A DNA stretch of 33,620 nt, from positions 1 through 33,620 of the IMG/VR virus record IMGVR_UViG_3300020473_000008. The stretch is one strand, 5' to 3'. The translations under genes and the position numbers were made by a program. Below, piece after piece: positions 3,651-8,391 of the stretch. The DNA comes from a virus. How positions within the stretch are numbered: the first letter of the stretch is position 1; the number at the start of each line of letters is the position of its first letter. Under the pieces are notes generated by a model. The model saw only the letters and a list, made by a program, of their open reading frames with translations, made no database searches and was not told the DNA's origin.

Positions 3651-4397
3651 TTAGTATTCAACACTTTCCATTTGTTCCATAACATATTTTGCTCCAATGA
3701 AAGCATTAAACAGTTTTTTATTAAGAGGAATTTCCTTTATTTCAATTTCTGCCTCTTTTTTAGATAACTTAACTATAAAAGATTTAGAAACTTTATTTCC
3801 AGTTTCTTCCTCATATGCAAACTTATAAGCATTTAACTGCAAATAATAGTCAAATGTTATGAAGTTACTTGTCTTAATATCCATTAAAACAAGATTTCCT
3901 TTCTCATCTTTACAGATAAGATCAAGAGTACCAGCATAGTTATATTTTTTACAATAGATTTTTTTCTCTATTTCAACTACCTCGTACTTTTGTTTATTCC
4001 ACCAACCAAGAAAAGCATTCCAGCAATTAACTACTGCTTTATCCGATTGTTGCGGAATTTCTTTGCCCTTTAGATAGTCCTCAATTAGACCATGAACAAC
4101 TGAACCTACCAAAGCACCCTCATCTCTAAATGAATCAGGTTTCTTTTTAGCAGATGCAAATATTCTTTCTAATACTGCTCTATCTATTGGTTCCCCCAAA
4201 TCTAATTTTTCATTAATTAACCTTTTAACTTCATTCAAAGGTGTATTAACTAACCAATTAGTTAATTGAGGTTTTGGTATACCACGACCACAAATTCCTG
4301 TAACCGATTCTACCTTTTTATCATTAACATAATACATATGCTTATCATCATTGTAGCTTAATATTATGCCATTTTTTAGTGGGTATTTTTTCCACAT
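3651..4397 (-). CDS. PD-(D/E)XK nuclease, RecB/Cas4-like
   Basis: A 248-residue protein carrying the RecB-type nuclease pattern: H102 in VVHGLIEDYLKG, D159 in AGTLDLI, D173-I-K175 in LMDIKTS, and Q187 in YLQLNAYKFAYEEETG. These are the metal and catalytic residues of PD-(D/E)XK exonucleases used for end resection in phage recombination. The four-Cys cluster of true Cas4 is not evident. It overlaps the upstream XRE-like gene by 22 bases and starts behind GGAAAGG. No annealase of the RecT or Erf type was recognised beside it; the 3270 gene is the nearest candidate. Confidence 0.88.
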   Translation of the reverse strand: MWKKYPLKNGIILSYNDDKHMYYVNDKKVESVTGICGRGIPKPQLTNWLVNTPLNEVKRLINEKLDLGEPIDRAVLERIFASAKKKPDSFRDEGALVGSVVHGLIEDYLKGKEIPQQSDKAVVNCWNAFLGWWNKQKYEVVEIEKKIYCKKYNYAGTLDLICKDEKGNLVLMDIKTSNFITFDYYLQLNAYKFAYEEETGNKVSKSFIVKLSKKEAEIEIKEIPLNKKLFNAFIGAKYVMEQMESVEY

Positions 4398-4699
4398 TTT
4401 TTACCTTTCCAACTGAATTGTCGCCAAAGTATATTCAAATCATAATTATAATAATTTGATAAAGCAAATACTCTAGCTAAATCAGTTTTTACTCCAGATT
4501 CAAACCTATATAAATCAAAAATTGAATTGAAATATTTAGGATTGTCTTGAACTACTGCTTCAGCAGTTATTTTATTATCAAGTCTAATATTCTTAAACTT
4601 AATACCAATAATTTGATTTAAAAGTTTAGCATTAGCATTTTTATTAAATGATTCTACCATACCTTTAACCATAAAATTGGTTTTTGTTACTTTATCCAT
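4376..4699 (-). CDS. XRE-like helix-turn-helix protein, divergent
   Basis: A 107-residue protein whose middle (IKFKNIRLDNKITAEAVVQ, then YRFESG and LSNYYNYDLNILW) has the spacing of an XRE/Cro-type helix-turn-helix domain, including the R-x-E-S-G that follows the recognition helix. There is an unusual insertion-like stretch (DNPKYFNSIF) in the recognition region. It may regulate the leftward operon or assist the nuclease. ATG follows CTAGAAAGG with 5-base spacing. The HTH assignment is by pattern only. Confidence 0.6.
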   Translation of the reverse strand: MDKVTKTNFMVKGMVESFNKNANAKLLNQIIGIKFKNIRLDNKITAEAVVQDNPKYFNSIFDLYRFESGVKTDLARVFALSNYYNYDLNILWRQFSWKGKKCGKNTH

Positions 4700-4709
4700 A
4701 TATGCCTTT

Positions 4710-4985
4710 CTAGTTTAAAACCGAATGTCCACGATTAATTAAACATTTTCTATATATAGATTCATGTTGCGTATCTGCCGTAGGACTTTCAATCCAAAAA
4801 ACAATACCACCCCAAAAAGTACTATTTGTATCTGCCACCATTTTACAATGTTGCAAATCATTAGTAATTTCTGTTGCTTTGTCCGAATCAAAAGTACCAC
4901 TTCGTCCAGCCGTGTCAATAACTGGTTTATACGAACAATTAGTCAGGCAAACGCCTAGGACTAATAGGTACATTATTTTCTTCAT
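4710..4985 (-). CDS. small lipoprotein of the cell envelope
   Basis: Ninety-one residues with a lipoprotein signal: MKKIMYLLVLGVCLTNC, where LTNC is a lipobox and Cys17 would be lipidated. The mature part starts SYKPVIDTAG and holds two further cysteines (Cys47 and Cys80). It would sit on the outer or inner membrane. Being in an early-type operon away from lysis genes argues for envelope remodelling or superinfection exclusion rather than an o-spanin. It begins behind CTAGAAAGG and overlaps the 4939 gene by 47 bases. Confidence 0.78.
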   Translation of the reverse strand: MKKIMYLLVLGVCLTNCSYKPVIDTAGRSGTFDSDKATEITNDLQHCKMVADTNSTFWGGIVFWIESPTADTQHESIYRKCLINRGHSVLN

Positions 4986-5246: not shown

Positions 5247-5284
5247 AAAGCCCCTTTCTAGTTTTTTTGAGTAGCTGACTCATC

Positions 5285-5313
5285 AGTATTTAGGAACAAC
5301 CCTAAATAGACAA
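5285..5313 (-). promoter_or_regulatory. leftward sigma70-type promoter P1
   Basis: Read on the minus strand: TTGTCT (-35, 5308-5313), a 17-base spacer, then AATACT (-10, 5285-5290). The -10 lies in the 10-base element ATACTGATGA that recurs at two other leftward start sites. The -35 overlaps the foot of the hairpin at 5310-5333. It would drive the membrane/lipoprotein/HTH/nuclease genes. Confidence 0.7.
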
Positions 5314-5333
5314 GGGGAATTAAATCCCCTTGT
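5310..5333 (-). terminator. hairpin terminator after the 5344 gene
   Basis: ACAAGGGGA (5310-5318) and TCCCCTTGT (5325-5333) form a perfect 9-bp stem with an ATTAAA loop, starting 10 bases past the stop at 5344. The minus-strand tail (CTATTTAGG) is only weakly T-rich, so termination may be partial. The same bases supply the -35 of promoter P1. Confidence 0.7.
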
Positions 5334-5343
5334 TTCGTCTTAT

Positions 5344-6694: not shown

Positions 6695-6734
6695 GATTTT
6701 CCTCCTAGTTATAATTAATGGGACTGCCATCATC

Positions 6735-6763
6735 AGTATCTATTCATCACAATAGATAGACCA
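6735..6763 (-). promoter_or_regulatory. leftward sigma70-type promoter P2
   Basis: On the minus strand: TGGTCT (-35, 6758-6763), a 17-base spacer and GATACT (-10, 6735-6740), again within ATACTGATGA. As at P1, the -35 is the foot of a terminator hairpin. It is placed to drive the DUF932 and 5344 genes. Confidence 0.7.
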
Positions 6764-6783
6764 GCGAATAAATCCGCTGGTTT
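6758..6783 (-). terminator. hairpin terminator after the 6792 gene
   Basis: ACCAGCG (6760-6766) pairs with CGCTGGT (6775-6781), extended by one G-T and one A-T pair to 6758/6783, around an 8-base AT-rich loop. It starts 9 bases beyond the stop at 6792 and runs into the -35 of promoter P2. The T tract is weak. Confidence 0.7.
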
Positions 6784-6791
6784 CGGCTATA

Positions 6792-7127
6792 TTACCAACA
6801 TTGATAATCTGACCTAATTGCTATTTTATTATTAGGTAATTTTTTTATTTTTGAAATACTTCCACCACCGTGAAAATATTCACACCAATAAGATATAGAA
6901 GATTCTAAATTTTTATCACAAATAATTGTGAAAGATTTATAATCTATATAATCTTTAAATATTGGACATTTTAATTTTGATGTACAATTATTTTCATCAA
7001 AACCACCAAAATTCCAATTATACATTTTAGAATTATCTAAATTTGGTTTTACAAAATATTCTTCAAATTGTAATTGTGTTAATTTAGAATTATTCTTATT
7101 TGTTGGTTCAAGTATAGTTACTTGCAT
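6792..7127 (-). CDS. hypothetical protein (111 aa)
   Basis: The start is set at 7127 (MQVTILEPTNK), 5 bases after CTAGAGAGG; the open frame to 7172 has no such site and overlaps promoter P3. The product is Asn- and Lys-rich, with cysteines in NNCTSKLKC, IICDKN, YWCEYF and the final CW, and a HGGGSISKIKKLPNNKIAIR segment that resembles a small enzyme or binding domain. No family was recognised. It is a single-gene unit between P3 and the hairpin at 6758-6783. Confidence 0.68.
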   Translation of the reverse strand: MQVTILEPTNKNNSKLTQLQFEEYFVKPNLDNSKMYNWNFGGFDENNCTSKLKCPIFKDYIDYKSFTIICDKNLESSISYWCEYFHGGGSISKIKKLPNNKIAIRSDYQCW

Positions 7128-7173
7128 ATTTACCTCTCTAGTTTTTCGTTTTGGTTTATTAGCTAACATCATC

Positions 7174-7202
7174 AGTATAACTTGCTAAAGGTTATAGAAA
7201 CT
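7174..7202 (-). promoter_or_regulatory. leftward promoter P3 with weak -35
   Basis: The minus strand carries TATACT (7174-7179) inside the same ATACTGATGA element as P1 and P2. At 17-18 bases upstream only AGTTTC or TAGTTT is found, a poor -35, so this promoter may need an activator or be weak. It lies 47 bases upstream of the start at 7127. Confidence 0.5.
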
Positions 7203-7213
7203 AGGAAAGGAAA

Positions 7214-7330
7214 ATTTATACGGCTAAAGAAACTAATCTAAAGCACTTGCCGTTTACCATTGCTGAATTGACGGTTTTGGTTAAGGGATTAATCCTATAT
7301 GGATTATCTAATACCTACCCAAACTACTAA
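7214..7330 (+). pseudogene. possible small gene or remnant with ATT start
   Basis: A plus-strand frame with no ATG. ATT at 7214 lies 3 bases after CTAGGAAAGG (7201-7210), a ribosome-binding site of the type used elsewhere in this genome. The 38 codons encode IYTAKETNLKHLPFTIAEL and continue to a stop at 7328. A -1 shift near 7312 would continue into a second open frame to 7510 (ITDLDSNNLFTVYKIPTKTDF). Codons are richer in G and C at the third position than in neighbouring genes. It could be a decayed gene, a frameshifted gene or chance. Confidence 0.25.
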
Positions 7331-7416
7331 AAATTACGGATTTGGACTCCAATAATCTTTTTACGGTATATAAAATACCAACTAAAACCGATTTTAAAGT
7401 TTTAGCGAAAAGTGAC

Positions 7417-7497
7417 AAATTTACAAAACTTATTGGGAAAACTCCATTGGTTTTTTTCTGCAAGGAATTAAATTCCAAAACCAAAATTTGTAAATTT
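7417..7497. repeat. nested inverted repeat
   Basis: Outer arms AAATTTACAAA (7417-7427) and TTTGTAAATTT (7487-7497) pair over 11 bp. Inside, TTGGTTTT (7447-7454) pairs with AAAACCAA (7477-7484) over 8 bp. Innermost is GGAATT-A-AATTCC (7464-7476). All arms are perfect. Such nesting suits a cruciform, a replication origin or a folded RNA. Confidence 0.65.
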
Positions 7498-7593
7498 ATG
7501 TTTTCGTAAGACATAGGTATTTATACGAAATACTATAAATATCTAAATAGTTAAAAATCCTTTAAAAATAAGGCTTTTCAATGAAAACCTTAT

Positions 7594-7617
7594 AAAACAA
7601 TAAAAAACCATTGTTTT
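7594..7617. repeat. inverted repeat AAAACAAT/ATTGTTTT with neighbouring hairpin
   Basis: AAAACAAT (7594-7601) and ATTGTTTT (7610-7617) form 8 bp, extended by one A-T pair. Just upstream, AAGG-C-TTTTC (7570-7579) pairs with GAAAACCTT (7583-7591) with one bulged C; on the minus strand that hairpin is followed by ATTTTT, so it could terminate leftward transcription from further right. Confidence 0.5.
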
Positions 7618-7659
7618 AATAAATATCAAATCAAATGGTAAATTAATTCGCATATACTT

Positions 7660-7752
7660 TTAGTTTAGTCGATTTAAATTGCAGTTAATGGTTAAATCGG
7701 ATAATAAAAAAATTGAGGGGTGTTTCTTAAATTCTTTTAGCGAATCATACAT
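7660..7752 (-). CDS. possible 30-residue leader protein of the leftward set
   Basis: ATG at 7752 follows AACTAGAAAGG with 5-base spacing, the same extended ribosome-binding site seen before confirmed leftward genes. The 30 codons encode MYDSLKEFKKHPSIFLLSDL and end at 7660. The frame passes through the CGATTTAA inverted repeat. Just upstream on this strand is a strong hairpin followed by six T residues (7775-7808), so expression may be attenuated. The peptide has no recognisable motif; the call rests on the ribosome-binding site. Confidence 0.42.
   Translation of the reverse strand: MYDSLKEFKKHPSIFLLSDLTINCNLNRLN
7670..7705 (+). promoter_or_regulatory. candidate rightward promoter with overlapping operator
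   Basis: CGATTTAA (7670-7677) and TTAAATCG (7692-7699) form an 8-bp inverted repeat with 14-base spacing. It overlaps TTGCAG (7679-7684) and GATAAT (7700-7705), 15 bases apart, which could be a -35/-10 pair for the operon starting at 7830. A repressor on the repeat would block this promoter. The spacer is shorter than ideal. Confidence 0.4.
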
Positions 7753-7774
7753 CTCTCCCTTTCTAGTTAAAAAA

Positions 7775-7808
7775 TGTATGGGGAGTTTAACCGATTTCTC
7801 CCCATGCA
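7775..7808. terminator. strong hairpin upstream of the XRE gene, attenuator or leftward terminator
   Basis: ATGGGGAG (7778-7785) pairs perfectly with CTCCCCAT (7798-7805) and can extend to 7775/7808 with one G-T pair, giving about 11 bp. The loop holds an ACCGATTT site. On the minus strand it is followed by ATTTTTT, as in an intrinsic terminator. On the plus strand it ends 21 bases before the ATG at 7830 and could shape the leader. Confidence 0.6.
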
Positions 7809-7829
7809 CAATCAATCATAGGAGCAACA

Positions 7830-8147
7830 ATGCAAGAAGATAAAAAAATCTTCAATAATTCTATTGGAGTAAAAATAAAAACAAAAAGGTTGGAACTTAA
7901 AAAAACTCAATCTTGGTTGGCAAATAAATTAGGAGTTACATTTCAACAAATACAAAAATATGAAAAAGGTGCCAATGCAATTACTTGTTATAATTTAAAA
8001 CAAGTAGCAAAACATTTAAAAGTATCAATTTTATATTTTTATATTGATGGTTATGAATCTGACCAAGCATTTGAAAATGATAAATTAGAACCATTAATTT
8101 TAACTAAAGAAATGGAAGTACAAAATGATAAAAGTTCAAGTAGATAA
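7830..8147 (+). CDS. XRE-family transcriptional regulator
   Basis: A 105-residue protein with a clear XRE helix-turn-helix at residues 12-70: VKIKTKRLELKKTQSWLANK, LGVTFQQIQKYEKGANAI and LKQVAKHLKVSILYFY. The LGVTFQQIQKYE recognition helix is typical of alphaproteobacterial regulators. The C-tail is acidic and probably flexible. It is the first rightward gene, behind AGGAG (7821-7825), and likely binds operators in 7128-7829 to set the balance between the two gene sets. No C-terminal peptidase domain is present, so it is Cro-like in size rather than a cleavable CI repressor. Confidence 0.9.
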   Translation: MQEDKKIFNNSIGVKIKTKRLELKKTQSWLANKLGVTFQQIQKYEKGANAITCYNLKQVAKHLKVSILYFYIDGYESDQAFENDKLEPLILTKEMEVQNDKSSSR

Positions 8148-8391
8148 AATTTGGCTCGGTAAAGTAAGTATAAGAGATTATATTTACAAAAAATGTTTAA
8201 GAAAAAAAGAATCATTAGGTATTACACACGGAAAAGAATATATGTTTATACCATATGATAAATTAAAAAAGGCAAAACAAATTACCAATGAAAGTTTTAC
8301 ATCAAAATTTAATGGTAAAAAATACAAACTTATAGACTTTGATTGGAAACCGTTTAAACCTAAAAATCCTAATCAGGAGAAATTATTATGA
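8125..8391 (+). CDS. hypothetical protein (88 aa)
   Basis: An 88-residue basic protein (KIWLGKVSIRDYIYKKCLRKK, HGKEYMFIPYDKLKKAK, FNGKKYKLIDFDWKPFKP). It is beta-rich by eye and may bind nucleic acid. The start overlaps the XRE gene by 23 bases and the stop overlaps the next start (ATGA), so it belongs to the early rightward message. One Cys, no membrane segment, no recognised family. Confidence 0.68.
   Translation: MIKVQVDKIWLGKVSIRDYIYKKCLRKKESLGITHGKEYMFIPYDKLKKAKQITNESFTSKFNGKKYKLIDFDWKPFKPKNPNQEKLL

Follow-up and report, generated by a model that had tools for sequence, protein, structure and literature searches.

What is encoded in the interval that separates the two divergent gene sets of this phage? 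The window, which spans all 33,620 bases of a virus record, is from a marine, SAR11-type phage whose closest isolate is Pelagibacter phage HTVC112P. The interval (7128-7829) had been placed by the sequence-only reading exactly where the gene sets diverge, and this is borne out by a leftward start at 7127 and the start of an XRE-type regulator gene at 7830. The leftward set opens with the gene starting at 7127, whose 111-aa product has no family match in Pfam or PHROG, followed by a DUF932-type gene and a PD-(D/E)XK exonuclease gene; the XRE product is assigned to the PHROG category of transcriptional regulators. We consider it reasonably probable that a divergent control region occupies the interval and makes two RNA devices, a hammerhead-released RNA leftwards and a leader-ORF-coupled repressor rightwards (Table 1).

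The inverted repeats that had drawn attention to the interval are present as claimed, including the 11-bp and 8-bp pairs and the 13-base palindrome GGAATTAAATTCC (Table 1), and hairpins are confirmed at 7382-7405, 7518-7541 and 7593-7618. Their excess is modest: there are six perfect repeats with arms of at least 8 against 2.5±1.9 in dinucleotide shuffles (a count reached by 3 of the window's 94 tiles), and 11 with arms of at least 7 against 8.3±2.9, and the count alone is weak evidence because the sequence is A+T-rich. The folding energy of the whole interval gives z-scores of -6.9 (plus strand) and -3.95 (minus strand), with 0 of 20 shuffles as low; since both strands fold beyond their shuffles, the strand is undecidable from a single sequence, and the decisive evidence for the predicted structures is covariation in relatives. 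Among the 300-nt tiles of the window the lowest minus-strand folding energy is at 3901-4200, within the exonuclease gene.

Table 1. Positions in the window of the genes, predicted RNA elements and signals at the divergent control region.
Feature	Position	Strand	Remarks
Third predicted hammerhead (type II), intergenic in the leftward set	5274-5342	-	Cut predicted after 5309; descriptor scan, below Rfam threshold
Type II hammerhead, leader of DUF932 gene	6718-6788	-	Rfam RF02276, 47.2 bits; descriptor scan 6759
First leftward gene, 111 aa	6792-7127	-	Flanked by two predicted hammerheads; true start likely 7127
Predicted type III hammerhead	7138-7204	-	Cut expected between 7197 (C17) and 7196
B-type structured RNA core, 10 helices	7197-7418	-	3' end is the predicted hammerhead cleavage site
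Probable 5' domain of B-type RNA	7419-7510	-	Nested hairpins 7417-7427/7487-7497 and 7447-7454/7477-7484; palindrome 7464-7476
A+T-rich stretch between the two putative divergent promoters	7511-7674		Short hairpins 7518-7541 and 7593-7618
Putative rightward promoter -10 element TAAATT	7675-7680	+	Consensus TATATTG, aligned in 43 leaders
Leader ORF, 51 codons (MVKSDNKKIEGC...NNARR)	7688-7843	+	Ends 14 nt inside the XRE gene; previously unannotated
Pseudoknot 5' strand AAAUCGGAUAA	7694-7704	+	Shortly after the leader AUG; partner 7787-7797
Nearly invariant segment CUCCCUUUCUAGUUA	7755-7769	+	Exact complement of the leftward ribosome-site context AACUAGAAAGG
Hairpin H2, loop UAACCGAUUU (pseudoknot 3' strand)	7775-7808	+	Immediately upstream of the XRE ribosome site
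XRE-type HTH regulator	7830-8147	+	First large gene of the rightward set; Pfam HTH_3, E 5e-10

About 65 distinct homologous leaders were recovered from IMG/VR, using as anchors the conserved XRE-adjacent protein (8125-8388) and others. The sole relative of this protein in a bacterial genome is on a 9.4-kb contig (L326, PBVB01000001.1) of a metagenome-assembled Flavobacteriaceae genome, for which a stray piece of phage is a likelier explanation than a prophage. The slot corresponding to the interval contains one structured RNA, here called B-type, in 10 loci including the window, and a different one, C-type, in 32 loci (HTVC112P included, identical regions removed); there is one odd case, L200, and 27 loci have a short leader (among them L063 and L114, which are probably another region).

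The B-type RNA was aligned in eight sequences, several of them near-identical, with 96.9% of the pair cells kept and compensatory changes in 19 of 58 pairs. Covariation is 0.312 against 0.152 in shuffled alignments and at most 0.077 when the structure is slid; the slid control is lenient because both this and the C-type structure were partly derived from the alignments tested, and more weight belongs to the shuffled control and to the wobble counts. G-U pairs outnumber A-C by 47:4 when read on the minus strand, and as an RNA of the opposite strand would reverse this ratio, the B-type RNA is a minus-strand RNA; RNAalifold energies (-33.9 for minus, -19.4 for plus) favour the same strand. A plus-strand RNA in the middle part of the interval, suggested by the lower z-score, is ruled out by the wobble counts and RNAalifold. 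A minus-strand mini-ORF following AACTAGAAAGGGAG (ATGATTCG...) was also rejected, its start codon being lost in L145, L156, L144 and L167. The probable 5' domain is found in close relatives, and L145 has a similar long hairpin; from a candidate promoter, leftward transcription may start near 7505, an assignment of low confidence.

The C-type RNA lies in the same slot in relatives including HTVC112P and is pseudoknotted, with seven helices that begin in a crossing 1-2-3-1'-2'-3' order. In an alignment of 23 sequences 95.6% of the pair cells are kept and 16 of 35 pairs are changed on both sides, with covariation of 0.418 against 0.160 in shuffled alignments and at most 0.064 under the same lenient slid control; helix 2, which has no compensatory change, is the weakest element. 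The wobble ratio of 67:7 and the RNAalifold energies (-9.1 against -3.4) agree on the strand, and single-sequence z-scores are unremarkable on either strand. A covariance model of the C-type RNA re-found it in two more contigs, L262 and L208, and gave no match in the window, whose RNA is therefore treated as a separate family; Rfam has no family for either type. The C-type sequence CAGAGCC bears some resemblance to a group I intron, a likeness that we rejected as the helix order does not fit. L200 (829-1300) has a third, unrelated-looking RNA stretch ahead of a type III hammerhead, in a single sequence.

Directly behind the B-type RNA, positions 7204-7138 are predicted to form a self-cutting type III hammerhead. 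They have the core CUGAUGA...GAAA with an NUH cut site (UUC^) in the correct order, a stem III of CUAGUU/AACUAG and a stem I of UAUAAC/GUUAUA. Over 24 sequences 96.5% of the pair cells are kept (100% in stem I, 94% in stem III) and seven pairs are changed on both sides, with covariation of 0.137 against 0.069 shuffled and a G-U:A-C ratio of 30:0. Loop I (UUUAGC) and loop II (GCUAA(A)) form a pseudoknot with 93.8% of cells paired, for which L094 compensates with UUAAGC and GCUUAA (read by eye, as the alignment is shifted there). Stem II is short and irregular: G10.1-C11.1 is found solely in L147 and L148, the others having U10.1 opposite C11.1 or a bulged C and a four-pair stem UGUU/AAUA, of which one pair in the window is G-A. 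Weak stems II are known among natural hammerheads (PMC3088659), the window's G-A mismatch not being among those found there. The element falls below the Rfam gathering threshold, which is a detection criterion and not a chemical definition, and is missed by Rfam.

A descriptor scan of the window found three hammerheads, all on the minus strand (7197, 6759 and 5309), and none in shuffled windows. In some relatives a type II hammerhead replaces the type III in the same position, and several have two or three type II copies within the same operon. The 111-aa gene and the type III hammerhead look inserted: in L119 the B-type RNA leads straight into a type II hammerhead and then the DUF932 gene.

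The structured RNA and a hammerhead occur together in 43 of 43 RNA-bearing loci and neither is found in the 27 others, counts that are not independent because the loci are related; a descriptor scan of 13 loci without the RNA found no hammerhead. B-type RNAs are paired with type III in nine loci and type II in one, and C-type RNAs with type III in 18, type II in 12 and both in two. Bacterial hammerheads are reported with pseudoknot contacts, very short stems II and repeated copies around ORFs (Perreault et al. 2011, PMC3088659), and each of these elements therefore has precedent. In the papers examined we found no description of a constant partnership with exchangeable RNAs, and our literature search found no paper linking hammerheads to pelagiphages and none on HTVC112P.

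The plus strand encodes a smaller device. A conserved protein frame, raised earlier as the alternative to an RNA, is indeed present in the last 140 nt of the interval, where all 54 distinct leaders keep a leader ORF open; shuffles give an expectation of 5.0, and the other frames are open in 4 and 0 (the count excludes four leaders without a start by the pattern used). The ORF overlaps the XRE start in all 54, with its stop 1-43 nt past it, and neither Pfam nor PHROG has a match for its product. Between the -10 hexamer and the ATG lie 7 nt, a spacing that suggests a transcript which is leaderless or nearly so, and the leader ORF is itself probably leaderless. The plus-strand pseudoknot has 88.9% of cells paired in 40 sequences, with four pairs changed on both sides, and H2 has 91.2% of cells paired, with 8 of 10 pairs so changed. 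The strand preference is weaker here (33:21 overall and 24:7 for H2 alone). From this arrangement we infer that translation of the XRE repressor is coupled to the leader ORF.

The segment CUCCCUUUCUAGUUA is kept in eight leaders that read it in another frame and is therefore conserved as nucleotide sequence; an antisense action on the leftward genes is possible. The leftward starts at 4699, 4985, 6694 and 7127 have the ribosome-site context AACTAGAAAGG, complementary to the leader segment 7755-7769; AACTAGAAAGG is exact at 4705-4715 and 5253-5263, and few of the 47 rightward genes carry it.

Three other explanations of the leftward RNA and its setting were weighed against hammerhead release. 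In each of the 43 loci the RNA adjoins the ribozyme on its 5' side, a position that would also suit a cis-acting sensor (a riboswitch, or a leader bound by a protein) with control over the hammerhead or over expression of the leftward genes, the whole being one regulated ribozyme. Also in favour of a sensor, the 3' strand of stem III extends into the ribosome site of the first leftward gene, and the window's stem III 5' strand could pair far upstream instead (7199-7212 with 7754-7767). That pairing, however, is not conserved in the C-type phages and needs a transcript from beyond the leftward promoter; moreover, unrelated RNAs (B, C and L200) precede the same ribozyme and the same RNA precedes two permuted ribozyme types. 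This free combining of RNA and hammerhead types fits release better than one fixed ligand-sensing unit, and we regard a sensor as unlikely. A conserved role of stem III in masking the ribosome site was rejected, as it fits the window but not the C-type phages. Less probable still is that the hammerheads serve the mRNA only, by removing its leader and giving decay-resistant 5'-hydroxyl ends, with the upstream RNA a by-product or a cap: the hammerheads at 5309 and 6759 do lie between downstream genes and have no such RNA, but the upstream RNA is strongly constrained in structure, and phages without it have no hammerhead in the stretches examined.

A function at the DNA level, as a replication origin with cruciforms or as operator dyads for the XRE repressor, could account for a divergent promoter pair that has inverted repeats, an adjacent XRE regulator and an A+T-rich middle. 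DNA dyads, however, do not predict wobbles that strongly favour one RNA strand; no direct repeats (iterons) were found in 7505-7690, and the skew switch tracks gene direction, its minimum being uninformative on an origin because it falls where gene direction changes. We thus found no positive evidence for the origin that had been proposed and consider a DNA-level function very improbable as an explanation of the interval; operators may coexist within 7511-7687. In L160 (1587-1652), units of AAAAAATGAGCAAAATA / AAAATATGACCTTT are repeated with spacings of 21 and 49 nt between divergent promoters and are possible operators. The folded RNA proposed as the other option stands, with compensatory pairing kept among homologues in the B-type, the C-type, the hammerhead and the plus-strand hairpin, and its strand, left unclear by the sequence-only reading, is settled as minus for the main RNA and hammerhead (47:4 and 30:0) and plus for the smaller leader. 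The suggested GOLLD or ROOL identity does not hold: there is no Rfam match in the interval at the gathering threshold or at E up to 5, and the sole match is the type II hammerhead, outside 7128-7829.

In the two-device arrangement that we favour, a promoter within the interval would start the leftward transcript, the first 200-300 nt of which would fold into the structured RNA. The hammerhead directly behind it would cut the transcript, and as the cut lies behind the RNA we propose that the RNA is freed with a fixed 3' end (2',3'-cyclic phosphate), the downstream mRNA then beginning with a 5'-hydroxyl; further hammerheads would separate the subsequent leftward genes. Rightwards, a nearly leaderless transcript would open with the short leader ORF, which ends just beyond the XRE start. 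As the region after the AUG is predicted to pair with the loop of the hairpin ahead of the XRE ribosome site, translation of the leader is expected to open the hairpin and pseudoknot, which would allow XRE synthesis by coupling. More tentatively, and with rather less confidence than in the arrangement itself, we suggest that pelagiphage-like viruses keep a slot dedicated to a noncoding RNA released by a hammerhead, with unrelated structured RNAs replacing one another there and either hammerhead permutation serving to process the 3' end.

The predicted hammerheads resemble the type II (RF02276) and type III ribozymes of bacteria and phages in their catalytic core, three stems and loop I pseudoknot contact, and their copies around ORFs are like those in Agrobacterium (PMC3088659). 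They differ in their fixed place at a divergent phage promoter, directly behind a structured RNA that is one of at least two unrelated kinds, in the irregular stem II, and in a type III form that is not reached by Rfam. Like GOLLD and ROOL, the leftward RNA is a long structured element of a phage genome and lacks a protein, but it has no Rfam match, is about 200-310 nt long, ends in a ribozyme and sits in an operon leader. On the other strand, the leader ORF recalls the erm-type leader peptides, in which a short ORF and RNA pairing lie just ahead of the regulated gene; it differs in that the ORF overlaps the regulated start codon, the transcript is probably leaderless and the peptide is not conserved in all.

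The role of hammerheads in bacteria and phages has been a question since their discovery there, and the comparative data presented here place them directly behind a conserved structured RNA and show them to be absent where that RNA is absent, which suggests, in concrete terms that can be tested, what phage hammerheads may do. The B and C types are now available as two RNA families that Rfam does not match, and since the C-type occurs in the cultured phage HTVC112P (on HTCC7211) the proposal is directly testable. The overlooked leader ORF would be an added regulatory layer on the repressor in this marine phage group.
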